A stretch of 58,137 bases of DNA from a virus. Position 1 is the first letter of the stretch; every line of letters starts with the position of its first letter. The DNA lies in the IMG/VR virus record IMGVR_UViG_3300033145_001588, positions 1-58,137 of that record. The stretch is one strand, 5' to 3'. Positions 36,110-56,911 of this stretch are shown here, piece by piece. Under the pieces are notes generated by a model. That model was not told the origin of the DNA and searched no databases. It worked only from the letters and a program-made list of their open reading frames with translations. A program made the translations under genes and the position numbers.

Positions 36110-37660
36110 ATGCCCCTACCAAAACCACGCAAGGATGAAAAACAAGATGCTTTCATTTCCAGATGTATGGGAAATGATTTGATGAATACAGAATACCCAG
36201 ATAATAGTCAACGGGTAGCTGTATGTTATAGTCAGTGGAGGAGCAAAATGAAGAATCAACAGTACAAAGTATTAACAACGAATAATTATACAATTCGAAC
36301 GGAGGCACACCAGGGGGCAAAGCATCTTGTTATCCCAGTGGTCATGATGGTTGAGGGGGTACACAATGGAAGTGCAGGGCCACTACTTCATACCCAAGAT
36401 GAGTTAGGTAAGTTTCCAGCGGCATGGAATGGAATACCGGTATCAATTGGTCATCCGGAAGAGAATGGGCAACCAATATCTGCTAATTCTCCAAGTGTTA
36501 TCGATCAGTCGGTAATTGGTAGGGTGTATAATAGTAAGATGGAAGATGGTAAGTTGAAAGGGGAAGTTTGGGCGGATGTAGAGAAGTTGAAACAACTATC
36601 CCCGTTGGCTTACGCGTATATCATGCAACAGAAACCGCTGGATGTTAGTGTTGGTGTTTTTTCAGATGATGAACCTACTTCTGGTGAATGGGGAGGTGAG
36701 AATTACGTGGCTATTGCGAAGAATTATCGACCAGATCACCTTGCTCTATTACCAGAAGCTACAGGAGCCTGTAGTTGGCAGGATGGGTGTGGTATAAGAG
36801 CAAACTCAGAAGGGCTTTTAGAGGCAATAAATTTGGTAAGGGATAAACTTTACTCCTTAGATAGCGATACGGATTCGTATTACCTTGAGGAGGTTTATGA
36901 TGACGGTACTTTCATTTACAGGAGAAATGTACGAGGAGCAGGTGAGAAATATTACAAGAGAACGTATCAAATCAAAGATGAGGGGGTGCAATTTGGCAAT
37001 GATGAAGAGGAGGTGGTAAAGGAGATAAAGTATAAGAAGATAGTAACTATGAAGAGAACGAAAAATACAAAAAACAATATAGGAGGTAAAAGAATGGACA
37101 AAGTGCAGGAACTTCTAACCATTGCTCCTTCGGTGTATACCGAAGATGATAAGGAGTGGTTGGAGAAATTGGAAGAGGGGCAGGTTGATAAGATGATTAC
37201 GTGCGCCAAAGTGAACGCAGAAGTCACTGCTGCAAAGGAAACTGCAGAAGCAGACAAGGTGAAGGCAGAAGAAAGGGTCGTCGTTTTGGAAGGCGAGATT
37301 GCGGAACTGAAGAAAGGAGCTCCCCAGGTTAATGAGGAAGCTGCTATGAAGATTCTGAAGGAAAAGGTTTCTGATGTTAAGATTTTCAGTGAGCTTCTTC
37401 CTGATGAGTTGAAGGAGCAGTTCAACTATGGGCAGAAAACCTATGCGGCGCATCGGGAAGAATTGGTAACTCATATCGTAACTAATCAGCCTGGAAAGAG
37501 TTGGACGAGAGAAAAATTAGATGCGTTGAACATGGATATGCTGGAGGATATCGCGGATTCTATCAAAGCTCCTGTTTCTTATGAAGGCGCAGTCGGTGGA
37601 TTCTCCGTGAACACGGATGAGGAAATTCTTCTCCCGCCAGGAGTTGAAAAAATACTCTAA
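36110..37660 (+). CDS. Prohead protease fused to scaffold (DUF2213-like)
   Basis: The 517-residue protein begins MPLPKPRKDEKQDAFISRCMGND with a CYSQW motif common at the start of phage prohead-protease proteins. A protease-like domain follows (VEGVHNGSAGPLLHTQDEL, WNGIPVSIGHPEENG, PLDVSVGVFSDDE, HLALLPEATGACS). The last 190 residues are charged coiled coil with a C-terminal capsid-like tail, typical of scaffolds. GGAGAG precedes the ATG at 36110. The scaffold part also has its own start (next entry). Confidence 0.82.
   Translation: MPLPKPRKDEKQDAFISRCMGNDLMNTEYPDNSQRVAVCYSQWRSKMKNQQYKVLTTNNYTIRTEAHQGAKHLVIPVVMMVEGVHNGSAGPLLHTQDELGKFPAAWNGIPVSIGHPEENGQPISANSPSVIDQSVIGRVYNSKMEDGKLKGEVWADVEKLKQLSPLAYAYIMQQKPLDVSVGVFSDDEPTSGEWGGENYVAIAKNYRPDHLALLPEATGACSWQDGCGIRANSEGLLEAINLVRDKLYSLDSDTDSYYLEEVYDDGTFIYRRNVRGAGEKYYKRTYQIKDEGVQFGNDEEEVVKEIKYKKIVTMKRTKNTKNNIGGKRMDKVQELLTIAPSVYTEDDKEWLEKLEEGQVDKMITCAKVNAEVTAAKETAEADKVKAEERVVVLEGEIAELKKGAPQVNEEAAMKILKEKVSDVKIFSELLPDELKEQFNYGQKTYAAHREELVTHIVTNQPGKSWTREKLDALNMDMLEDIADSIKAPVSYEGAVGGFSVNTDEEILLPPGVEKIL
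37094..37660 (+). CDS. Nested scaffold protein, in-frame internal start
   Basis: Inside the protease gene, ATG 37094 is in frame (codon 329) and is preceded by a perfect AGGAGGT six bases upstream, better than the site of the full-length gene. It would give a 188-residue protein starting MDKVQELLTIAPSVY with a coiled coil (VTAAKETAEADKVKAEERVVVLEGEIAELKK) and a C-terminal domain. This is the lambda C/Nu3-type nested arrangement that supplies extra scaffold relative to protease. Confidence 0.75.
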   Translation: MDKVQELLTIAPSVYTEDDKEWLEKLEEGQVDKMITCAKVNAEVTAAKETAEADKVKAEERVVVLEGEIAELKKGAPQVNEEAAMKILKEKVSDVKIFSELLPDELKEQFNYGQKTYAAHREELVTHIVTNQPGKSWTREKLDALNMDMLEDIADSIKAPVSYEGAVGGFSVNTDEEILLPPGVEKIL

Positions 37661-37715
37661 TATTATTAGAGTTGAGGTAGAGAAAAATAACAATAAATTA
37701 TAGGAGGTACAAACA

Positions 37716-38174
37716 ATGTCGTATAACACGATTAAGTTAAAGAAATACTCTGATATCATAGAAGAGTATGAGGCCGCAGGGACTATTACCCCCGGCATGC
37801 TGATCGCATTGAATAGTGACGGAAAAGTTGTTGCGCATGCCAATGCCGGGAAGTTTGCAGAGAAAATATTCGCCCTTGAAAATGAATTAGAGGGTGAGAG
37901 TATTAGTGACACTTACGCCTCTGGTGATCAGGTACAGTGTTGGGTTGCGGGTAGAGGCGACCAGGCGTATGCACTTCTTGCAGATGGGGAAAGCGTGAGT
38001 ATTGGCGATGCCTTGGAATCACATGGGGATGGTTACCTACAGGCAAGTGTAGCAGAAACAGCCAGCGGAATTACATATCCTGATTCTGTAGTTGGCGTTG
38101 CTCTTGAAGCCGTGGATATGTCAGGTTCTTCTGGTGAAGATCCTAGCGGTAGAATCAAAATTCGAATTATATAA
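37716..38174 (+). CDS. Head decoration protein
   Basis: The 152-residue protein (MSYNTIKLKKYSDIIEEYEAAGTITPGMLIALNSDGKVVAHA...) matches the small beta-rich decoration/cement proteins found between scaffold and major capsid genes (TPGMLI, HANAGKFAEKIFALEN, VVGVALE). AGGAGGT upstream. It probably trimerises on the capsid surface to stabilise the shell, as lambda gpD does. Confidence 0.8.
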   Translation: MSYNTIKLKKYSDIIEEYEAAGTITPGMLIALNSDGKVVAHANAGKFAEKIFALENELEGESISDTYASGDQVQCWVAGRGDQAYALLADGESVSIGDALESHGDGYLQASVAETASGITYPDSVVGVALEAVDMSGSSGEDPSGRIKIRII

Positions 38175-38191
38175 CAAGGAGGTAAATAATA

Positions 38192-39283
38192 ATGATTGAT
38201 GCTATATTAGGAAATGGGCAGGTGCATGGCGATGTGGCGGCATATATGGCAGGGGAAGGGAGACTGAACCCCGGTAATATGCGTCCTTGGCTTGGTAAAG
38301 ATGGGGGAGCTTACGTCACTGTATTCACTGGTGGGGATGCAAAGAACCCCAAAAATTACAAGGCTATGCAGGTGAATGCAGCTACTCTACGACGGGATGA
38401 GTGGAAGACTTTAGATGATGCTGTAGTTAAGGTCAGTGAAACTCGTTTGAATGGTATTGCAGATCTCATTGCAAATGGCCTGACGTATGATCTTGGGAAT
38501 GCAATGGGTACTACAGTGCTTGAGTGGCATGATGTATCGGATGCTATGGAGGCTGATTTGACAATGGACGGGGTTTCTCGGAGTAGAGGGGATCGTCCTG
38601 TTTATCAGACGAACTATCTTCCGATTCCGATAATCCACGTTGATTATGAAATTAATGCGAGGGTGCTTGAGGCCAGCAGGAAGTTGGGGAATCCTCTGGA
38701 CACCACTTCTGCCGAGAGAGCTGCTCGTAAGGTGAATGAAAAATTGGAGGAAATGCTATTTACTGATGTTGATTATGCTTGGGGTACTAAGGATGATCGC
38801 TCCAGGAATAAGATTTACTCCTATCTTAATTACCCTGATATTAACAGCGTAACTCTCAGCGCAAACTGGGACGCATCTGGAAAAACAGCGGCACAGATCC
38901 TGGCAGACGTCTTAAACATGAAACAGTCCAGCATTGATGCGAAGCATTATGGCCCGTGGATGCTGTATATCCCAACTGCATATGAAACGGTATTGGATGA
39001 GGACTATGATACCACGACTCCGGGTACTACTATCAGGGAAAGAATCCTGAAGATAGCTGGAATCAAGGATATCAAGGTGGTGGATACTCTTACAGCGGAT
39101 CATGTACTGCTAGTGCAGATGACAAGTGATGTTGTTCGGCTGGTACGGGGGATGCCTATTCAGAATGTTGAGTGGCAGACTGAAGGTAAGTTCATTACGA
39201 AGTACAAAGTGCTGACCATTCAGGTTCCTCAGATTCGTTCTGACCAGGATGGGAACTGCGGAGTTGTGTTGCTTGCTGCATAA
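38192..39283 (+). CDS. Major capsid protein
   Basis: The 363-residue protein occupies the usual place after the decoration gene and has the HK97-fold features of the group: GAYVTVFTGGD, an E-loop-like region, INARVLEASRKLGNPLDT, LEEMLFTDVDY, GPWMLYIPTAYETVLDEDY and IKVVDTLTADHVLLVQMT toward the end. AAGGAGG precedes the ATG. It should assemble the icosahedral shell; no long delta domain is visible, agreeing with a separate scaffold. Confidence 0.9.
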   Translation: MIDAILGNGQVHGDVAAYMAGEGRLNPGNMRPWLGKDGGAYVTVFTGGDAKNPKNYKAMQVNAATLRRDEWKTLDDAVVKVSETRLNGIADLIANGLTYDLGNAMGTTVLEWHDVSDAMEADLTMDGVSRSRGDRPVYQTNYLPIPIIHVDYEINARVLEASRKLGNPLDTTSAERAARKVNEKLEEMLFTDVDYAWGTKDDRSRNKIYSYLNYPDINSVTLSANWDASGKTAAQILADVLNMKQSSIDAKHYGPWMLYIPTAYETVLDEDYDTTTPGTTIRERILKIAGIKDIKVVDTLTADHVLLVQMTSDVVRLVRGMPIQNVEWQTEGKFITKYKVLTIQVPQIRSDQDGNCGVVLLAA

Positions 39284-39315
39284 GGTAATCTTAACAGATG
39301 GTGAAGGAGATTGTG

Positions 39316-39681
39316 ATGCACGAAAGTAAAGAGATCCGATGGCGGAAAATAGGGGGTGGTTCCCTCCGGTATATTCGTGGTAGGATTATAAAACCAAATG
39401 AGGTTTTCACTGCACGACCGGAGGAAGTTCCGCTTGCCTTTCGTAAGCAGGTAGTAGCGTTGGAAGATATTCCGGAGACGGTGATTGAACCTATGCGGTC
39501 TTTTACAGCCCTTCGGAGAGAGCCTTCCCCAGACATTGAAGAAGGAGATGTATACGAGGTACAAAAGCGTTCTACCGGTGGTTGGTGGGATGTGGTGAAT
39601 TCTGTATCCGGTAAGATTATCAACGAAAAAGGTCTTCGGGAAGGGGCAGCAAGAGAATTAGTAGAGGAATTAAATACATGA
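39316..39681 (+). CDS. Small protein with GGGSLRY domain
   Basis: The 121-residue protein starts MHESKEIRWRKIGGGSLRY...IIKPNEVFTARPEEVPLAFRKQVVALE. The same domain recurs at the N-terminus of the protein at 40728-41675, where it precedes a transferase-like part. ATG at 39316 has AAGGAG upstream; an ATG at 39298 is less likely. It opens the cassette between the capsid gene and the connectors and overlaps the next gene by ATGA. Function unknown; a virion-binding or substrate-tethering domain is plausible. Confidence 0.65.
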   Translation: MHESKEIRWRKIGGGSLRYIRGRIIKPNEVFTARPEEVPLAFRKQVVALEDIPETVIEPMRSFTALRREPSPDIEEGDVYEVQKRSTGGWWDVVNSVSGKIINEKGLREGAARELVEELNT

Positions 39682-40391
39682 TCTGGACTGTCCCCCGATT
39701 GTGGGAAGGCGCTACGTGTTGGATTGTAGGGGGAGGAACTTCCATGCCCTTGCAATTTGGAGTTCCCCAGGAGATAATACAGAAGGTATATGAAGGAAGG
39801 CTCTCTCCTTCTGTATACTCTGATTATATGAAACCTCTTCACAAACAGCATGTAATAGGGATTAATAATGCATACCAACTAGGGATGTGGATTGATATTC
39901 TGTTCTTTGGTGATGGTGATTGGTATTCGAAACATCGTATGAAGTTGGCAGAATGGCCGGGATTGAAAGTATGCTGTGATCAGAAATTAGCAAACTGTTT
40001 GCGGAATAAGATGGAAGGTATTAAATTTCTTGAACGTGATAAGGAGCGAAAGGAAGGGATAACTTCTGATCCTTCGAAGGTTTCTTGGAATGCAAATTCA
40101 GGGGCGGCTGCTATTAGTTTGACGCATCATTTGGGGGTGCGAAGAATAAATCTGTTAGGGTTTGATATGGCTATGGATGATAAGAAAACTCATAGTCATT
40201 GGCATGGTTCTCATATGCCGCCGGGACAGAAGGTAAAGCTTCGCCCTCCATTTGAGAAGCATTTGAAAGGATTCCCAGCGATAGCACAAGACGCAGAAAA
40301 ATTGGGAATAGAAATATACAATCTCAGTTCCGTTAGTAAAATTGATTGTTTTTCAAAAATTACATTGGAGGAAGCATTAAAAAATGGATAG
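39678..40391 (+). CDS. MptE/DUF115-like or sialyltransferase-like glycan protein
   Basis: The 237-residue protein begins WTVPRLWEGATCWIVGGGTSM, a Rossmann-like nucleotide-sugar-binding start, and continues VIGINNAYQLGMWIDILFFGDGDWY, WNANSGAAAISLTHHLGVRRINLLGFDM. This resembles DUF115/MptE-like and sialyltransferase-like proteins found in phages. It would add or prepare a sugar or related group, perhaps on the virion. It is embedded in a cassette with a cupin, an FkbM methyltransferase and a GT9-like protein. Confidence 0.65.
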   Translation: MIWTVPRLWEGATCWIVGGGTSMPLQFGVPQEIIQKVYEGRLSPSVYSDYMKPLHKQHVIGINNAYQLGMWIDILFFGDGDWYSKHRMKLAEWPGLKVCCDQKLANCLRNKMEGIKFLERDKERKEGITSDPSKVSWNANSGAAAISLTHHLGVRRINLLGFDMAMDDKKTHSHWHGSHMPPGQKVKLRPPFEKHLKGFPAIAQDAEKLGIEIYNLSSVSKIDCFSKITLEEALKNG

Positions 40392-40731
40392 GCAAAACAA
40401 AGTATGGGGAGAAAGATGGATAATTCGTCAAGATTCTACGCATTGTACTTCCTTTTTGAAATTGTTGACAAATCATAGATGTAGCTGGCATTCTCATACG
40501 GCCAAGTATAACCTGTTTGTTTTATTATGGGGAAGGGTAGGAATTGTAACAGAGGAGTTAAACGGGGAGCGTAGAGAAATGATGTTAACGGAAGGGCAAT
40601 GTTTTACTACACGGCCAGGACAATTACATGAATTCAGAGTATATGAAGATTCGGGGATGATTGAGGAGATGTACGTGGAGTACAATGAAGATGATATTAA
40701 GAGAATAACACTTGGAGGAGAATTAACATGA
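40384..40731 (+). CDS. Cupin-domain protein
   Basis: The 115-residue protein has a single cupin barrel: HRCSWHSHTAKYNLFVLLWGRVGI (metal His residues) and GQCFTTRPGQLHEFRVYED. It resembles the type of cupin in mannose-6-phosphate isomerases and sugar epimerases, so sugar isomerisation or binding is likely. It overlaps the preceding gene by 8 bases and the next by ATGA, so it belongs to the sugar cassette. Confidence 0.75.
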   Translation: MDRQNKVWGERWIIRQDSTHCTSFLKLLTNHRCSWHSHTAKYNLFVLLWGRVGIVTEELNGERREMMLTEGQCFTTRPGQLHEFRVYEDSGMIEEMYVEYNEDDIKRITLGGELT

Positions 40732-41675
40732 AATCTTCTGCCGCCAACGCAGAAATATGTGGATGGAAGAAAGTTGGTGGTGGAAGTTTGCGTTGGAATG
40801 GACAAATTATAAAACCAGGACGGATTTTTTATGCTACAAAAGAAGATTTACCAAAAGCATTTTTAAAACAGATCGTGCCAGTTACTCACAAAGCTCGTAT
40901 AGCTTCTTCTTCTATAGAGGATTTGAAAATTTATTATGTATCCAGTGAGAAAACATCCCCTCGTTTTGCGAAGGCATTTGCTATAGGTAGTGGCGGTATG
41001 CTGATAGAAGGAGATACTTATCAATTAGGTAATTGGGCAGGATTTGGTTCACCAGTAACCTGGTTGAGTTTACAACAAGCGCAAAAGATGGGTTTCGATT
41101 GGTATTATGGTGATCATGGTTACTTTAACAGGAATAGAAGTTTTCGGGTGACGCGGAATGCCTATCAAATGGCACATATTCAAACTGATGGATACAAAGA
41201 AACGGCGGCGAATCAAAAACGATTGGATGTATGTAAGATAGTAGAAAAACCCTGGGAAAAGACTGGAAGAAATATTCTAATATGTCCTCCTGATATAAAT
41301 ATTTCTCGTTTACTTGGTTTTTCTATATCAGCATGGAAAAAGAAAATCATTGAACGAGTAAAAAAATATACAGATAGATCAATCATGATCAGAGAACGGC
41401 GTGATAAAACACCTCTAATAAAAGCATTAAAGAACACCTGGTTTCTAATCACCGCATTTTCTAATGTAGCAGTAGATGCTCTTATTGCAGGGATACCAGT
41501 GCATACTACTGATATATGCGGAGCTTTTCCATTATCCACTCCATTGAAGAATATTGAGAAACCCACATACCCGGAGAATAGAAGGGAATGGTTATTGAAC
41601 CTTTGCGCAAATCAATGGACGCTACGCGAGATTACATCAGGGATGTGTTGGGATAGGATAGGAAAAAAGATATGA
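40728..41675 (+). CDS. Glycosyltransferase-like protein with GGGSLR domain
   Basis: The 315-residue protein starts with the domain shared with 39316-39681 (GWKKVGGGSLRW...IIKPGRIFYATKEDLPKAFLKQIV). The remainder has ILICPPDINISRLLGF, SNVAVDALIAGIPVHTTDICGAF and ANQWTLREITSGMCWDRI, a pattern seen in phage proteins of glycosyltransferase-like fold where a nucleotide-sugar site precedes a conserved end. Enzymatic role is inferred. It overlaps its neighbours by ATGA on both sides. Confidence 0.65.
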   Translation: MKSSAANAEICGWKKVGGGSLRWNGQIIKPGRIFYATKEDLPKAFLKQIVPVTHKARIASSSIEDLKIYYVSSEKTSPRFAKAFAIGSGGMLIEGDTYQLGNWAGFGSPVTWLSLQQAQKMGFDWYYGDHGYFNRNRSFRVTRNAYQMAHIQTDGYKETAANQKRLDVCKIVEKPWEKTGRNILICPPDINISRLLGFSISAWKKKIIERVKKYTDRSIMIRERRDKTPLIKALKNTWFLITAFSNVAVDALIAGIPVHTTDICGAFPLSTPLKNIEKPTYPENRREWLLNLCANQWTLREITSGMCWDRIGKKI

Positions 41676-42352
41676 AATTTTCTAAAGAAATTGGATGGTG
41701 GTTTCCTGATAAAGAAAGGCATATGATACAATGGATGTTGTCGGTAAATAAAAAGGTTGCTGGAAGAAAGGCTTATCAATATCACAAATATGAAGCATGT
41801 TTTCCCTTTATACGAGCTACAAAAGATATTTGCATTGATGTTGGTGCTCATATTGGAACATGGTCATATTATATGGCTCAAGATTTTCAAAAACTTATCG
41901 CATTTGAACCAATATCAATTCATGCGAATTGTTGGAAAAAGAATGTAAAAGCAAAAAATGCTACTTTAATACGACATGCTTTAGGGAATTATAATGGAAG
42001 AGCTTATCTTTCTACAAGAACAATAGATTCTTCTGGGGATACCGGTATTGATGTGGAAGAGGTAGAAGATGCTCAAGAGACTTTGATACTTCGCTTAGAT
42101 GATCTGGAACTTCCAGAAGGAAGTATTGATTTTGTTAAGATTGATTGTGAGGGTTTTGAGTTGTTTGTCCTGCAAGGGATGGAAAGATTGCTCTTAGAAC
42201 ATAAACCCTGTGTCATCGTTGAGCAGAAACCAGAAACAGGAGGTTTCAAGAAATATGGCATATCCAGTACAGCAGCCATTGATTATTTGAAGGCATTAGG
42301 TGCTATTCAATGTAGACGAATACAAGGAGATTACATTTTAAGTTGGTCATGA
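41672..42352 (+). CDS. FkbM-family methyltransferase
   Basis: The 226-residue protein has the SAM-binding start CIDVGAHIGTWSYYMAQ, FEPISIHANCWKKNV, TLILRLDDLEL, FVKIDCEGFELFVLQGM and VIVEQKPE, all FkbM-type. FkbM enzymes usually O-methylate sugars or related groups, which fits the neighbouring sugar transferases. ATGA overlap with the previous gene. Confidence 0.88.
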   Translation: MKFSKEIGWWFPDKERHMIQWMLSVNKKVAGRKAYQYHKYEACFPFIRATKDICIDVGAHIGTWSYYMAQDFQKLIAFEPISIHANCWKKNVKAKNATLIRHALGNYNGRAYLSTRTIDSSGDTGIDVEEVEDAQETLILRLDDLELPEGSIDFVKIDCEGFELFVLQGMERLLLEHKPCVIVEQKPETGGFKKYGISSTAAIDYLKALGAIQCRRIQGDYILSWS

Positions 42353-42364
42353 GGAAATGATGAA

Positions 42365-43162
42365 ATGGGTTATGGCGATGAAATAATGGCTTTGGGAAGA
42401 GCGGAGGCGATTTACGCTATCCTTGGAAAACCCGTGGCTATTCATGGAGTGAGCGACAATCGTCGAAAGCATCCTGTATGGAGAAATCATCCGGCAGTGG
42501 ATTTCAATTCTCCATTACATATTGTTGATGGACCTTCTGCTCGTCCATATATTCTGCGGTGGAGTCGTAATCCAGGATTGATAACTATATGGAATACAAA
42601 GTATCGTGCACGCGCAGGTCATATTCGCTTGACTGCACAAGAACAGGCCGAGGCGCTATGCCTAACTCCGGAAATGCCGTTTGCAATTGTAGAACCTATT
42701 GTAAGGAGAGGGAGTAGTAAGAATAAGGATTGGGGATTTGAACGTTGGAAAGCGGTTGTTAAAGATTTTCCAATCCCAGTATATCAATTCGATCCGGATG
42801 GGAAAACGAAGATTCTTCCTAAAGTAATTGCAATAGATTCTCCGAGTTTTCGGGTATCTGCAGGTATAGTAGAACATGCTTCTTTGGTGATGACAGTTGA
42901 CGGGGGTATGCATCACATGGCGGCAAGTATGAATACCCCTGCCGTGGTGGTGCTTGGCGGGTTTGCCCACCCGAAGATTACAGGATATGCTTACCAAAGG
43001 AATTTCTATGTTGATCTTCCAGAATCACCTTGTGGAAGATATTATCCTTGTGAACATTGTAAGAAAGCAATGTCTATGATTAAGCCTGAAGAAGTTCGTC
43101 AAGCAGCGTTAGAAATGTTGAATAAGGAGGACTGTGATGGCAGTTCGAGTAACAGCCGCTGA
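42365..43162 (+). CDS. Glycosyltransferase family 9-like (heptosyltransferase fold)
   Basis: The 265-residue protein begins MGYGDEIMALGRAEAIYAILG and contains KDWGFERWKAVVKDF and VMTVDGGMHHMAASMNTPAVVVLGG, the C-terminal nucleotide-sugar-binding pattern of GT9 (ADP-heptose:LPS transferase) enzymes, though shortened. It ends CGRYYPCEHCKKAM, where related proteins also have paired cysteines. It closes the sugar cassette and overlaps the start of the connector gene by 26 bases. Confidence 0.75.
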   Translation: MGYGDEIMALGRAEAIYAILGKPVAIHGVSDNRRKHPVWRNHPAVDFNSPLHIVDGPSARPYILRWSRNPGLITIWNTKYRARAGHIRLTAQEQAEALCLTPEMPFAIVEPIVRRGSSKNKDWGFERWKAVVKDFPIPVYQFDPDGKTKILPKVIAIDSPSFRVSAGIVEHASLVMTVDGGMHHMAASMNTPAVVVLGGFAHPKITGYAYQRNFYVDLPESPCGRYYPCEHCKKAMSMIKPEEVRQAALEMLNKEDCDGSSSNSR

Positions 43163-43511
43163 AGTGAAACAGATTATAGATACTGATCTTGCAGATGAGG
43201 TAGTAGACGCCTTCATTCTTGGGGCTAATCATACTGTAACGGAAGTGCTCGGAGATGATACGAATCTTTCTGATGGGCATAAAAAAGAGATTGAGAGGTG
43301 GCTTGCTGCCCATCTGATCGCTGCTACAAGAGAACAGCAAATACAAAAGGCAGGCGCTGGTGGAGCGAATGTAACTTACCAGGGACAAACTGGTATGGGA
43401 TTGGAGGCTACTTTATACGGGCAACAATGTATTCGTCTTGATACAACTGGTAAATTGGCGGCACTTGGTGCAAAACGAGCTAAGATAACAGCAATAACTT
43501 CGTTTGATTGA
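43137..43511 (+). CDS. Head-tail connector (gp6-like adaptor)
   Basis: The 124-residue helical protein (MAVRVTAAEVKQIIDTDLADEVVDAFILGANHTV..., EIERWLAAHLIAAT) with a strand-rich end matches the small connector proteins that sit between portal and tail. ATG at 43137 has AAGGAGG six bases upstream. It resumes the structural series after the sugar cassette. Confidence 0.75.
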   Translation: MAVRVTAAEVKQIIDTDLADEVVDAFILGANHTVTEVLGDDTNLSDGHKKEIERWLAAHLIAATREQQIQKAGAGGANVTYQGQTGMGLEATLYGQQCIRLDTTGKLAALGAKRAKITAITSFD

Positions 43512-43535
43512 AAGGGGTAGAAAGCCATTAAATTT

Positions 43536-43649
43536 TCCTCAAAAAACATAGGCTGAGTTGGGGTTTTTTGCTCTAAAATCAATTTTCTTAGGTAAGGGTA
43601 TATATTTATATAGGGAAAGAAAAAGAAGGGGCTTAAAAAAATTAAAATG
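43536..43649 (+). repeat. Dispersed ~110-bp repeat, copy 3
   Basis: Nearly identical to 19407-19520 read on the opposite strand and related to 2066-2173. Here it lies in the rightward late block, oriented with transcription, between the connector and the head-closure genes. Its last three bases are the ATG of the 43647 gene; the phage-type promoter that follows the other two copies is absent. A/T-rich with a TATATATTTATATA inverted core. Confidence 0.88.
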
Positions 43650-44015
43650 ACAAAACCAATAGAAAAATTTCTTAGAAAATTGAGCGTGCAAACTGCAGTG
43701 TATTGGGGGGCACCTGTAAACGATGGGTACGGCGGTTATACTTACTCTACTCCAGTTGAAATTGCAGTTCGTTGGGAGGGTTCGACAAAAGTAATCACCA
43801 TTTCTAAAGGGGTAGAATATGTTAGTCGGGCGGAAGTCATAGTTAATCAGGATGTAGATGAAGAAGGGTATTTGTATTTGGGAACATTATTAGATTTGAC
43901 GGAGGAGCAGAAAGTAGATCCACAGTTGGTAGATGGCACATGGAAGATTATGAGATTTGATAAGACTCCTATGATTTTCAAGACTGACGAATTCGTAAGA
44001 AAGGTTTTCCTCTAA
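43647..44015 (+). CDS. Head closure or neck protein
   Basis: The 122-residue beta-rich protein (VQTAVYWGAPVNDGYGGYTYSTPVEIAVRWEGSTKVI...) fits head-closure/stopper proteins by size, fold impression and position between the connector and the HK97 gp10-like protein. Its start codon is the end of dispersed repeat copy 3, so its 5' leader is the repeat; the ribosome site (GGGG about 15 bases upstream) is weak. Confidence 0.65.
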   Translation: MTKPIEKFLRKLSVQTAVYWGAPVNDGYGGYTYSTPVEIAVRWEGSTKVITISKGVEYVSRAEVIVNQDVDEEGYLYLGTLLDLTEEQKVDPQLVDGTWKIMRFDKTPMIFKTDEFVRKVFL

Positions 44016-44509
44016 TGAGCACGGCAATAGAAAAAGCAAGTCTTCAGGAAGTGGTAAAAAATCTTAATAAAGAGATTAAGGGAATTGAAGGGCGTTCCTT
44101 GAAAGGCATGATTGAAGGCGTGATTGATGTTCGGCGTGATATGGATAAGACATCTCCTATGATTCCGGTGGATACTGGAAATTTGAGGCAGAGTTGGTTT
44201 GTTACAACTTCTAAAGGCGCAACGCCACAAGGTAAATCCCCTAATTTCAAGGGTGAGAATGCGGGAAAAATGGCATCTGAACATTCCTCAGTAAAAACAG
44301 TTGCTGCTGGAAGAGCGAAGGCTAAATCACGAAAAGGGCCTGTAGTAGCTTTTGGTTTCTCTGCGAATTATGCTTTGAAAGTGCATGAAATGTACGGGAA
44401 GCATTTTCGACGTCCGGATGCAGGTGCCGGGTTCTTTGTAGCGTCAATAAAACGAAACAAAGAAAAGATTTTGAAGGCGATCAAAGAAAATGCAAAGGTA
44501 AAAAAGTGA
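44015..44509 (+). CDS. HK97 gp10-like head-tail joining protein
   Basis: The 164-residue protein has the gp10-type pattern: SPMIPVDTGNLRQSWFV, VAFGFSANYALKVHEMYGKHFRRPDAGAGFFVAS, a helical C-terminus and a basic end. It helps join head and tail. The ATG overlaps the preceding stop (TAATG). Confidence 0.85.
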   Translation: MSTAIEKASLQEVVKNLNKEIKGIEGRSLKGMIEGVIDVRRDMDKTSPMIPVDTGNLRQSWFVTTSKGATPQGKSPNFKGENAGKMASEHSSVKTVAAGRAKAKSRKGPVVAFGFSANYALKVHEMYGKHFRRPDAGAGFFVASIKRNKEKILKAIKENAKVKK

Positions 44510-44910
44510 ACCCGACAAGCGTTGATGTATGCTCATTGTTAGAAGCGGATTCCAGTCTTGGATTGACATTTGCTACTAATTTGTTTGTTGGCAAAGAGCC
44601 GGCATCTCCAGATAATTGTGTGACTATATTTGATATCTCAGGAGATGCCCCATTACTCACATTGGGAGGAAAAGGAGGGATTACTTATTATCAACCATCT
44701 ATTCAGGTGCGAGTCAGAGACAATAGTTACTTAACGGGATGGGGATTAATTCACGATATACAAGAATACCTGCATGGTATTAATGGAGAAGTAGAGGGCG
44801 GTACAGAGTATCTGCTTATCAAAGGAGTAGATGAGCCTGCTCTACTTGATAGAGATGAGAATGATCGTGTGAGATTCATAGCAACATTTTCAGTACATCG
44901 TAGGCAGTAA
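44506..44910 (+). CDS. Tail terminator/completion protein
   Basis: The 134-residue protein (starting with GTG, GTGA overlap with gp10) has NCVTIFDISGDAPLLTLGGKGGITYYQPSIQVRVRDNSYLTGW and a late VRFIATFSVHRR, like minor capsid/tail completion proteins upstream of the tail tube gene. It probably caps the tail tube. Confidence 0.75.
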   Translation: MNPTSVDVCSLLEADSSLGLTFATNLFVGKEPASPDNCVTIFDISGDAPLLTLGGKGGITYYQPSIQVRVRDNSYLTGWGLIHDIQEYLHGINGEVEGGTEYLLIKGVDEPALLDRDENDRVRFIATFSVHRRQ

Positions 44911-44937
44911 TATAAACAAAATAGGAGGTAAATAATT

Positions 44938-45381
44938 ATGACAGCAGTAGAGGGAGTTACAGGAGTTGGGACAGTATTCCGTAGATGGAATACTACATCC
45001 AGTGAATGGGAAACAATAGCAGGAATTACTAATATTGGCGGTCCCTCAGCATCACGAGAAACACATGATACCACGGCGTTGGATACCGCAGGAGGGTATA
45101 AAACATTCATTACCGGATTTCGAGATGCTGGGGAAATTACTCTTTCAATGATTTTCAATCGAACAGAATATGATATTATGGTTGGTGATTTTCAATCAGA
45201 TGACGCACAGAATTATGAGATAGTCCTTCCAGATGACGAAGATACCTCAATTGAATTTGAGGGGTTGGTCACAGGCATTCCATTAACAATTCCGGCAGCG
45301 CCTATAACATTAGAGGTGACCATTAAGATTTCAGGTGCAATCACCATAAACTCAGGTAGCTATTCAGGATCACCAGCATAA
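44938..45381 (+). CDS. Major tail tube protein
   Basis: The 147-residue protein has the lambda gpV-like pattern: GVGTVFRRWNTTSSEWETIAGITNIGGPSASRETHDTTALD, YKTFITGFRDAGEITLSMIFN and a C-terminal TLEVTIKISGAI. It forms the stacked rings of the siphovirus tail. AGGAGGT before the ATG; the tail chaperone genes follow. Confidence 0.88.
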   Translation: MTAVEGVTGVGTVFRRWNTTSSEWETIAGITNIGGPSASRETHDTTALDTAGGYKTFITGFRDAGEITLSMIFNRTEYDIMVGDFQSDDAQNYEIVLPDDEDTSIEFEGLVTGIPLTIPAAPITLEVTIKISGAITINSGSYSGSPA

Positions 45382-53650: not shown

Positions 53651-56600
53651 ATGGCGGTATATGAAGGCATTCTTGAAACCTGTATTCGTATAACAGAAGG
53701 CGGAGATACCCGTATAACAGAAGCGGGCGATATTCGCCTTCTGGAATATGATGGTGAGACTGTATTTTCAGTTGATTCTATTACGTCTACATGGGCAGCT
53801 CAGGCGGCCATAGATGAATCGGTTGGGGTGAGTGATTTTTCTCCGGTTCTTTGGGATGCTCAGGTTGCTATAGATGAATCAATTGGAGTATATGATAATG
53901 TATTAGTAGAGGTTTTTGTTGCTATAGATGAATCGGTTGGGGTGAGTGATTCTTCTCCGGTTCTTTGGGATGCTCAAGGATTCCTTGCTGAATTGGTTTC
54001 CATAGATGATTCTGTACCCACTACTTGGAATGCTCAAGTTGAACTCTCCGAATCGGTATCGTTAAGCGATACTTATGTACTTGCGAGAGTTTACGGCAAA
54101 ATACTGAATGAATTGATTTCTGCATCAGATGTTTTATCGGTTGACTGGAATGCTCAGGGTGCCACAGATGAATTCATTTCTGCATCAGATGTTTTATCGG
54201 TTGACTGGAATGCCCAAGTCGAACTCTCCGAATCGGTTTTCATAGAGGATTCTGTACCAGTTGCTTGGAACATTCAAGGGGTACTCACTGAATCAATTGC
54301 GGCGGGCGACAATATATTAGTAGAGATTTCTGTTGCTATAGATGAATCCGTTTTGGTATCAGATGCAATTTCTGTGTCAGGATATATAATCGGATGCTGG
54401 CTGACAATCGAAGGCAATGATACATTCCAAGTTGGCGATATTCTGTATATGAAGGAAGGGCTTGATGCAGAATGGTTGGAGGTGACTGACGTAACGTTCG
54501 CCCCTTCTTATAAGGTCACTAGAGACAAAGCGGGGGTCTATGCTGATGGCGCTAATCCGCAATGGACTAAAGGTGCTTCAATTGTCAATTACGGACAGGC
54601 AGGAGATGGCGGAATCTACCTCACTGCCTCTGATACCAATGCTCCTCATCTGTCGATTTTTACTCATAATGGTGCGCCTTGGAATTCTATCACAACTCAT
54701 ATTCGTGAAGGTAATCTCAATGGTTATGCCGGATATGAGACTGATATCTATGGCTGGGCAAGTTATATTGATGCTAATAATTACATCACGATTGACCCTG
54801 CAAATGGTATCAGGATGTCGGGAGAGATAGTAATTACTGGTGGTTCGGGCATAACATTGTTAAGTGATGCCGGCGATCTTGTAACAGCAAATGACCTTGA
54901 TGACATTGCTGACGGTACTAATTACGGTAAGATCTTAAAGACTGCTATTAGTGCTGGTAAGATAATTCTGACAGAAACAATAGGTAATCTTGATGATATT
55001 GCTGATGGTGATTCTTATGGTAGGGTAGCTACAACTGCTATTAGTGCTGGTAAGATAGTCTTGTCAAGTGGGACTGGGGTAGATGGGATTCTTCCAGTAA
55101 GCCATACAGAAGCGGATGTAACAGCTGAACATCCTTTCGTGGCTTATAGAATTTATGAATTTAGAAATTCCGCTGATGATTTTTCTGCGGATAATGCAGA
55201 TATAACACTTAATCCCGATAGTATTGTTATAACTCCCACTACAGATGACCCAAAGTTTGTGAGAGCTGTCAGTATCGACGGGAGTCTGTATGACAGAGTT
55301 AGAGTACGAATTAAAAGAAATTCTGGAAGCACTTGGCAGGGAACACTTTATTATGCCACAAGTGGGCATGGGTTCTCAGCTTCATATTATAAGCAAATTA
55401 GTTTTCCTGACATTTCCAATGGAGAATATACGGTTCTTGAATGGGATATGTCCGATTTAACTGCGGGCGGAGATGATTGGATTACAAACACCATAACAGA
55501 TATTAGATTTGATTTTGCAACGTCTACAGATACTGTTTATGAGGTCGACTGGGTTGCAATAGGAAAAAAGAGTGTTGGGGATATAACCGGAGAAAATACC
55601 GCTGCTGCTATAGCAGATCAGGGCGCTCTTGCGACAGAAAATGCCGCTGACTGGTCAACCCAGGTTGCTGGTACTAATAAACCTGATGATAACGCTGACG
55701 TTACTTCGGCGCAGTTTACCAATCCCCTTTCGGATATCGATATCGGTATTAGCAGGGCGCTTAACGGACTGGACGCAAGCTCAATGATTACCAAAGCGGT
55801 TAAGGCATCCCTGCTTGCCGGTACTCCGGATTACGCTGGGTTATGGCTGACCTCTGGGTATTTCGGGTATTACGATGGTGCATCTTGGCCGGTGTATATC
55901 AAGGACAATGGGGATTTCTGGTTCGGCAAGGATGATGACAATTATTTTGCATATACCAGCGGGAACCTGGTGTTCAGCACGTCTCAAGCCAACGGTTTCC
56001 GGATTTTAAACGGTGGCGGGATGAAGGTTTATGATGGCGGTGATATCACATTAACCGGGACGAATGCTCGGTTAATTTTTGATGGAGGCGAGTTGGTCAG
56101 TAATGACAGTCAGAATCTCCAGATGATTGGTTGGGATTCCCATGTTTTGATTTCCGCCACCGGTTCGGAGTATGAGTTATCTCTCGATGCTGGATCCCGC
56201 ATACGAATGACCACCGGACAGGGTACTTTAACATTGGGACAGGGGCAATGCAATATTAGTGAGTATTTGTGGGTTGATAATGATATCGCTTTGTCTGGTA
56301 AAATTGATCTGACTACGGAAGGCGACATTGTAGCTGACGATGCTGTCCGGCTGAAAGCTACGGCGTCAGGAGGTACAATTGCTCATTATGCGTATAACAC
56401 CGCTTTTTTATGGACTTCTACCAATTTTTATGCAGACAACACAACAGAAACTATCGATTGCGGAAGCAGTACTCGTTATTGGAAAACTGTGTACGCTAAA
56501 ACATATTATGAGAGCGGCGGGGGGTATAATGATGCATGGAAAAATCCCAAAACCGGGAAAATTGAGCAGATTGATGATTTAGCAATTATTATGTCTATGG

Positions 56601-56911
56601 GGACAACCGGGGAATACGATGAAGAAACCGGGCAACTAAAACTCGATCATGCTAAATCGCACCCCATACTTTTTGGGTATCATTCAGAAGATGGAGAGGA
56701 GATTGATGAAACAGGCAGGACAGTTAAAACCTGGAAAAAGGGAGACATGATCACAAGAGCAAATGGAAAGCCCGCATATAATATCAGCACCAGAATTGGA
56801 GTGGCGCATGGCGCTATTCGGCAATTGAACGCAAAAATTGAAAAGATTAATCAAGATGTATCGAAAATTAAAAAAATACTGGTTGACAATGGGATTGCAG
56901 CTGTTTCTTAG
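53651..56911 (+). CDS. Large tail fibre protein with repeated motifs
   Basis: The 1086-residue protein begins with repeats of the type (I)DESVxVSDxxxVxWxAQ over residues 45-240. A second pair of repeats, LDDIADGxxYGKxxxTAISAGKI, lies near residues 415-475. Beta-rich shaft and a C-terminal part (YNDAWKNPKTGKIEQIDD, ISTRIGVAHGAIRQLNAKIEKI) complete it. Repeats of both types are common in phage fibres. It should be a trimeric receptor-binding fibre; no auto-chaperone cleavage motif was recognised. Confidence 0.85.
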   Translation: MAVYEGILETCIRITEGGDTRITEAGDIRLLEYDGETVFSVDSITSTWAAQAAIDESVGVSDFSPVLWDAQVAIDESIGVYDNVLVEVFVAIDESVGVSDSSPVLWDAQGFLAELVSIDDSVPTTWNAQVELSESVSLSDTYVLARVYGKILNELISASDVLSVDWNAQGATDEFISASDVLSVDWNAQVELSESVFIEDSVPVAWNIQGVLTESIAAGDNILVEISVAIDESVLVSDAISVSGYIIGCWLTIEGNDTFQVGDILYMKEGLDAEWLEVTDVTFAPSYKVTRDKAGVYADGANPQWTKGASIVNYGQAGDGGIYLTASDTNAPHLSIFTHNGAPWNSITTHIREGNLNGYAGYETDIYGWASYIDANNYITIDPANGIRMSGEIVITGGSGITLLSDAGDLVTANDLDDIADGTNYGKILKTAISAGKIILTETIGNLDDIADGDSYGRVATTAISAGKIVLSSGTGVDGILPVSHTEADVTAEHPFVAYRIYEFRNSADDFSADNADITLNPDSIVITPTTDDPKFVRAVSIDGSLYDRVRVRIKRNSGSTWQGTLYYATSGHGFSASYYKQISFPDISNGEYTVLEWDMSDLTAGGDDWITNTITDIRFDFATSTDTVYEVDWVAIGKKSVGDITGENTAAAIADQGALATENAADWSTQVAGTNKPDDNADVTSAQFTNPLSDIDIGISRALNGLDASSMITKAVKASLLAGTPDYAGLWLTSGYFGYYDGASWPVYIKDNGDFWFGKDDDNYFAYTSGNLVFSTSQANGFRILNGGGMKVYDGGDITLTGTNARLIFDGGELVSNDSQNLQMIGWDSHVLISATGSEYELSLDAGSRIRMTTGQGTLTLGQGQCNISEYLWVDNDIALSGKIDLTTEGDIVADDAVRLKATASGGTIAHYAYNTAFLWTSTNFYADNTTETIDCGSSTRYWKTVYAKTYYESGGGYNDAWKNPKTGKIEQIDDLAIIMSMGTTGEYDEETGQLKLDHAKSHPILFGYHSEDGEEIDETGRTVKTWKKGDMITRANGKPAYNISTRIGVAHGAIRQLNAKIEKINQDVSKIKKILVDNGIAAVS
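53805..54370 (+). repeat. Coding repeat array in the fibre gene
   Basis: Degenerate units of roughly 50-60 bases. 54109-54168 and 54169-54228 are close tandem 60-base copies (GCATCAGATGTTTTATCGG shared), and GAATCGGTTGGGGTGAGTGA recurs at about 53816 and 53931. Such arrays allow fibre length change by recombination. Confidence 0.8.

Follow-up and report, generated by a model that had tools for sequence, protein, structure and literature searches.

Between the genes for its major capsid protein (MCP) and its head-tail connector, the virus record IMGVR_UViG_3300033145_001588 (58,137 nucleotides, positions 1 to 58,137, hereafter the window) contains six genes, gA to gF, which probably form a modular system in which exchangeable enzymes of sugar and sulfate modification dock on the capsid during its assembly, or on gA, the protein encoded right after the capsid gene. 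Gene order, conservation, domain sharing, co-occurrence and predicted folds were established for the window and its relatives, and from these we infer the mechanism. A preliminary description of the window had proposed a tightly overlapping six-gene sugar cassette inserted in the structural operon and involved in virion glycosylation. Six same-strand open reading frames were indeed found at that place; however, gA is not a sugar enzyme, gA and gB constitute a conserved core, and only the third to sixth genes (gC to gF) represent the insert.

The window derives from a tailed phage: from 29.9 kb onwards its plus strand carries the genes for terminase, portal, head morphogenesis, capsid and tail, and its minus strand the replication genes. 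Consecutive genes from gA to gE overlap by 4, 8, 4 and 4 bp, a 12-bp gap separates gE from gF, and gF overlaps the connector gene by 29 bp. Promoter and terminator scanning of positions 37500-45000 gave the same counts as shuffled sequences, with no internal regulatory signal. No transmembrane segments were predicted in gA to gF, and PADLOC returned no defence match. The dN/dS ratios (nonsynonymous to synonymous substitution rates) of gA, gB, gD, gE and gF were approximately 0.09-0.14, indicating purifying selection on these five genes.

The locus was compared in 124 relatives with enough sequence. The distance from the MCP gene to the connector gene ranged from 68 bp to 7.8 kb, being 68-264 bp in five relatives and approximately 1-8 kb in most others (both ends read), and this slot could be empty or hold up to approximately 7 kb of genes for soluble enzymes, among them glycosyltransferases, sulfotransferases, methyltransferases and enzymes of nucleotide-sugar metabolism. 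In the window and in the island-bearing relatives in which both ends were read, the island was located between MCP and connector. The preliminary description had suggested looking for presence or absence of the cassette by comparative genomics. In locus L002, whose MCP is 95% identical to that of the window, gA and gB are followed directly by the connector gene, and the four accessory genes gC to gF are exactly absent. Besides this gA-gB pair, the smallest islands consisted of gA and a single sulfotransferase (L172, L199 and L225), and these three loci provide a minimal system for asking what is sulfated. Among 123 non-redundant island proteins there were 24 matches to Sulfotransfer_3 and 15 to GT2 (glycosyltransferase family 2), many methyltransferases, five proteins of GDP-mannose-dehydratase/epimerase (nucleotide-sugar) types, three adenosine 5'-phosphosulfate (APS) kinases and three GT29 sialyltransferases, to which PHROGs and NCBIfam searches added glycosyltransferase and sugar-nucleotide families. 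Since APS kinases occur along with sulfotransferases, sulfated sugars are suggested in some relatives. A scan for MCP relatives seeded with L173 detected none. Nine contigs of metagenome-assembled genomes carrying relatives were assigned to Bacteroidota, Balneolales, Spirochaetota, Marinimicrobia, Syntrophomonadaceae, Deltaproteobacteria and Puniceicoccales, too mixed a set for host assignment.

In almost every uncultivated relative recovered through its capsid protein, the gene directly after the capsid gene is gA. It is a non-enzymatic protein of two domains, an N-domain with the consensus W+KIGGGSLR..IIKP..F.A and a C-domain with the consensus GW.DVV...GK..NEKAL, and its predicted structure (pLDDT 76) consists of a small barrel resembling SH3 together with a beta-beta-alpha unit. 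No Pfam or PHROG family was matched above cutoff, no significant match was found among 50,697 isolate phage records, a PDB sequence search with the gA profile gave nothing significant, and Foldseek against PDB and BFVD gave no match at E <= 0.001. The best VIA match, GINS (Z 5.3), was discarded as a common small-barrel arrangement. Tandem pairs of gA-type genes were observed after the capsid gene in L028, L045, L050, L051, L066 and L067. Outgroup loci have in the place of gA another post-capsid protein (Y.LK.G.EH.Y...GD.V.LT..QY.AF.DKF), similar in layout and lacking a significant profile match to gA.

The N-domain of gA is also carried by enzymes of the islands. It was found on gD (314-315 amino acids, aa; window, L004, L097 and L101), on a protein of 705-706 aa (L003, L005 and L164), on a 490-aa gB-like protein with an FkbM part (L012), and internally in a 763-aa protein (L006). 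The gD of the window and the 706-aa enzyme share approximately 70% identity over residues 1-57 and no detectable similarity beyond, and the enzyme-borne N-domains fall into a single clade (support 0.97) that excludes the gA proteins of the same genomes. These two results indicate that the N-domain has been kept as a tag while the enzyme body was exchanged. By contrast with this, the C-domain was never found on enzymes in hidden Markov model (HMM) searches, and it followed the presence of the island: both occurred in 112 of the 124 relatives (113 with the gA of L174, read by eye), neither in 10 (5 of them outgroup), the C-domain without an island in none, and an island without the C-domain in one (L181). 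The C-domain of L225 lies below the profile threshold and was read by eye. Island-free phages contained either no gA (L169, L203 and L205) or a gA consisting of the N-domain only (L020, 74 aa; L173, 63 aa), and island-free states occupied roughly four branches within the in-group of the capsid tree. The lone sulfotransferases coming after gA in L172, L199 and L225 led us to consider tyrosine sulfation of the C-domain; this was rejected as a general explanation because the aromatic position that comes after GW is occupied by Trp both in the window and in L199.

The second core gene, gB, is near-universal among the relatives, like gA, and is a predicted glycosyltransferase of the Maf/Cst fold. 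It matched phrog_4603 ("alpha-2,3-sialyltransferase") with an E value of 1e-32, and its AlphaFold model (pLDDT 93.6, pTM 0.92) had as top VIA match Maf of Magnetospirillum (5mu5; Z 14.9, 4.2 A, 192 residues), followed by the Campylobacter sialyltransferases Cst-I (Z 12.4) and CstII (Z 12.0; Foldseek E 7e-5). The fold spans most of the protein, and 24 columns were invariant across 51 relatives, including G18-G20, S22, N63, D79, G161-F162-D163 and H195. A PDB sequence search with the gB profile gave nothing significant. The preliminary description had labelled gB as MptE-like. The corresponding family, PF01973, scored 12.8 bits against a curated cutoff of 34.6 (E 0.11); the label refers to the same superfamily as the Maf/Cst assignment. 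Fusions of gB with GT2 domains were found in L018, L061 and L069. Maf enzymes catalyse O-glycosylation of flagellin at Ser/Thr (PMC11339370).

As for the accessory genes, the earlier FkbM and GT9-like labels of gE and gF were confirmed, since both proteins passed the family cutoffs: gE with PF05050 (61.0 bits, cutoff 22.7, E 2e-16) and TIGR01444 (85.1 bits, cutoff 37.7, E 6e-24), and gF, in its C-terminal part only, with PF01075 (26.7 bits, cutoff 22, E 4e-6). A homologue of gF is present in CcrColossus (E 3e-33). The cupin label of gC stands less firmly: PF07883 is matched (E 2e-4) but below the family cutoff, and phrog_7851 with an E value of 5e-12; gC was found in 8 loci. The body of gD is homologous to proteins of Caulobacter jumbo phages and of a Pelagibacter phage that adjoin glycosyltransferases, and in the Pelagibacter phage the gD-like and FkbM-like genes adjoin a sulfotransferase.

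Table 1. Coordinates of the genes and domains of the locus and of related features in the window and in other loci.
Sequence	Positions	Strand	Feature	Remarks
Window	38192..39283	+	MCP, HK97-like; DUF6260/Linocin/Major_capside relatives	PF19774 E 8e-20, phrog_771 head; upstream anchor
Window	39298..39681	+	gA, two-domain post-capsid protein; proposed capsid-docking adaptor / glycan acceptor	127 aa; extended consensus W+KIGGGSLR..IIKP.EIF.A (N-domain) and GW.DVVN..GK.INEK.LR..A..L (C-domain)
Window	39334..39468	+	gA N-domain, residues 13-57; SH3-like small beta domain	Recurs in glyco-enzymes
Window	39547..39678	+	gA C-domain, residues 84-127	Only where a glyco/sulfo gene comes next
Window	39678..40391	+	gB, predicted Maf/Cst (GT42-like) fold glycosyltransferase; core enzyme	237 aa; phrog_4603, predicted fold
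Window	40384..40731	+	gC, small cupin; accessory	115 aa; PF07883 below cutoff, phrog_7851
Window	40728..41675	+	gD, gA-type N-domain fused to putative GT-B-like transferase body; accessory	315 aa
Window	40758..40898	+	gA-type N-domain of gD, residues 11-57	HMM E 6e-18
Window	41672..42352	+	gE, FkbM-family methyltransferase; accessory	226 aa; PF05050, TIGR01444
Window	42365..43162	+	gF, GT9-like (heptosyltransferase family) glycosyltransferase; accessory	265 aa; PF01075
Window	43134..43511	+	Head-tail connector, DUF4054-like	Downstream anchor of locus
Window	972-29264	-	GTP cyclohydrolase I, QueC, QueD-type PTPS, radical SAM protein, two QueF-like proteins	
L172	11529-12236		Lone sulfotransferase right after gA	Whole island
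L199	4225-4902		Lone sulfotransferase right after gA	Whole island
L225	3688-4341		Lone sulfotransferase right after gA	Whole island
L088	7034-7426		Outgroup post-capsid protein	
L089	932-1486		Outgroup post-capsid protein	
L090	7013-7414		Outgroup post-capsid protein	
L083	6954-7316		Outgroup post-capsid protein	

Two further kinds of island gene were noticed. Between gA and gB of L037 (9421-9861) there is a gene whose product, judged by eye, resembles S-adenosylmethionine decarboxylase (GFVLIAESHISLHTFP...LDVFSCK); polyamine chemistry in a capsid operon would be odd. Directly after gB, L037 (10565-11278) and L174 (12167-12829) encode mutually related proteins of approximately 220-240 aa (TIAAGE.HIGE...) that resemble no known enzyme, and that are possibly a surface or fibre protein carried in the island.

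Virion glycosylation, as put forward in the preliminary description, is still the best reading, given the likeness of gB to Maf, the position of the island, the shared adaptor domain and the scarcity of membrane spans; its attribution to a six-gene unit does not hold. In the mechanism that we favour, the late operon would make the island enzymes along with the capsid protein, and the N-domain would dock gA, as well as gD and other tagged enzymes, on the procapsid or the finished shell. gB would then add a first, nonulosonic-acid-like sugar to a protein acceptor, most likely the C-domain of gA or the capsid; gF, gD and gE would extend and cap the glycan, and gC might modify a sugar precursor, a role that is a guess. 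In relatives, tagged and untagged accessory enzymes would extend, methylate or sulfate the glycan, and exchange of accessory genes would alter the coat between related phages, as capsule serotypes vary. A more specific version of this proposal is advanced tentatively, as somewhat less probable than its negation. It regards the capsid-docking domain as an address tag, which together with a C-terminal acceptor domain would make a decoration protein and, fused to interchangeable enzymes, would bring glycosyl- and methyltransferases to the shell, the sulfotransferases of relatives being untagged; coats would thus differ in a capsule-like manner, some of them being sulfated.

Several points weigh against modular virion decoration as proposed here, in which the presence of gA in the virion, binding of its N-domain to the capsid and sugar on virion proteins are putative. 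Three relatives found by MCP lack gA altogether (L169, L203 and L205), indicating that gA is dispensable, and in L181 gB is present and gA was not detected. Loci seeded with gA (by a scan with a narrow gA alignment profile) are gA-positive by design, and a Fisher test on the association between C-domain and island overstates independence because related phages share ancestry. Between the gD of the window and that of L004, dN was higher in the N-domain than in the body, so that selection holds the tag less tightly than the catalytic part; moreover, gD has no Pfam or NCBIfam match of its own. The alignment of gA with the outgroup post-capsid protein by hhalign kept the same register and was insignificant (E 0.16). 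The genes of lambda gpFI and YqbF likewise come after a capsid gene, and the gA model matched the gpFI C-domain and YqbF (2lsm and 2hjq; Z 3.6 each) among unrelated SH3-like matches; this weak likeness is suggestive only.

An alternative is that the enzymes act late in infection on the host envelope (lipopolysaccharide, capsule or teichoic sugars) and so prevent superinfection or renewed adsorption to receptors, and that the late operon serves for timing only. GT9 is the lipopolysaccharide heptosyltransferase family, tagged relatives gave capsule-type Capsule_synth matches, and in a gut phage family one glycosyltransferase has been proposed to act in this way (PMC8008677). We consider this explanation unlikely, as it leaves unaccounted for both the N-domain on the enzymes and the link between C-domain and island, and gB is closest to a protein glycosyltransferase. 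O-antigen conversion systems require a flippase and a membrane transferase. Unlike these, 160 of 164 island proteins have no predicted transmembrane segment (the annotated holin and spanin were positive as controls), and the hallmark of gtr-type O-antigen seroconversion, a membrane flippase with a polytopic transferase, was found neither in the window genes nor in those 160 proteins. The solubility of the island proteins and the unexplained shared tag thus make action on host lipopolysaccharide less likely.

Somewhat less probable again is that gA is a gpFI-like assembly chaperone outside the virion that brings the enzymes to the procapsid, the sugar being placed on the capsid or tail-tube protein and not on gA. 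The position of gA directly after MCP and the gpFI C-domain match would fit this, as would the mycobacteriophage precedent, in which capsid and tail-tube subunits carry their glycans C-terminally (PMC12619734). However, the gpFI match is within noise, and the C-domain of gA varies with the island, suggesting a more direct part in the modification. That the island products modify bases of the phage DNA and not proteins appears very improbable. Genes for GTP cyclohydrolase I, QueC, QueD-like, radical SAM and QueF-like proteins make a 7-deazaguanine DNA modification pathway probable in this genome, and viral glycosyltransferases that carry out DNA hypermodification are known (reference in PMC12619734); yet the genes of that pathway are located in the other, minus-strand arm, the island lies in the head operon, and the best fold matches of gB are protein or glycan transferases. 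Least credible of all is that gB is a 6-hydroxymethylpterin diphosphokinase (MptE) within metabolic cargo unrelated to the virion: its weak PF01973 match, its likeness to the archaeal pterin kinase HPPK of M. jannaschii (8sd5, Z 10.8) and a GTP cyclohydrolase gene that could supply pterin-like precursors are outweighed by the higher scores and longer alignments of Maf and Cst-I, by the phrog_4603 match and by the glyco- and sulfotransferase neighbours in relatives.

Modular virion decoration was also compared with known systems. The mycobacteriophage enzymes Che8 gp110 and Corndog gp38 are reported to glycosylate capsid and tail-tube proteins (Freeman et al. 2023, via PMC12363180 and PMC12619734). 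There, as is proposed here, phage-encoded glycosyltransferases are taken to modify virion proteins; the window group differs in adding a conserved non-enzymatic adaptor gene, a tag shared among enzymes and a sulfotransferase-rich, hypervariable multi-enzyme island, and in that its virion modification is predicted from genes. With Maf and GT42 Cst enzymes, gB shares the predicted fold, and gB itself has the conserved motifs GGGpS, SGAAAI and GFDM; it differs in being a stand-alone phage protein, with a sequence identity of 11-17%. In FlmG of Caulobacter, the N-terminal domain binds the flagellin acceptor and the C-terminal domain transfers the sugar (PMC7591256), so that an acceptor-binding domain and a transferase body are joined in one protein, as they appear to be in gD and its tagged relatives. 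The binder of FlmG is, however, a tetratricopeptide repeat (TPR) array, whereas the gA domain, a small beta fold outside any named family, also occurs on its own in a post-capsid protein. Caulobacter jumbo phages (CcrColossus gp126-gp131) contain homologues of gB, the gD body and GT9 in one block near structural (tail) genes, but they belong to another virus lineage, the block comes after the tail genes, and no gA or gA tag was detected. Phage P1 pmgO is a gB homologue (25% identity), but a single gene among pmg genes with no adaptor. In the literature searched, whose coverage was incomplete, we found no conserved post-capsid adaptor, shared glyco-enzyme tag or sulfotransferase-rich island at this position, and nothing relevant on phage sulfotransferases in virion glycosylation. 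Phage-encoded virion glycosylation is already known; what appears to be new is the adaptor, the tag common to several enzymes and the hypervariable island rich in sulfotransferases.

Elsewhere in the window, at the end of the tail region (53651-56911), a 1,086-aa protein with no PHROG match at E <= 0.001 is a candidate receptor-binding protein.

Sugar modification has been recognised on only a small number of phage coats, and the way in which the enzymes reach the virion still calls for an explanation. The locus described here offers a natural experiment on it: capsids that are almost identical occur both with the island and without it, and there are candidates for the adaptor and for the tag, whose binding partner is directly testable. 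If the proposal is right, phage surfaces would vary by exchange of glyco-genes, like bacterial capsules, which would affect adsorption, persistence outside cells and the way protists or immune systems recognise the phages, and the island would supply glycosyl- and sulfotransferases that act on proteins in the cytoplasm.

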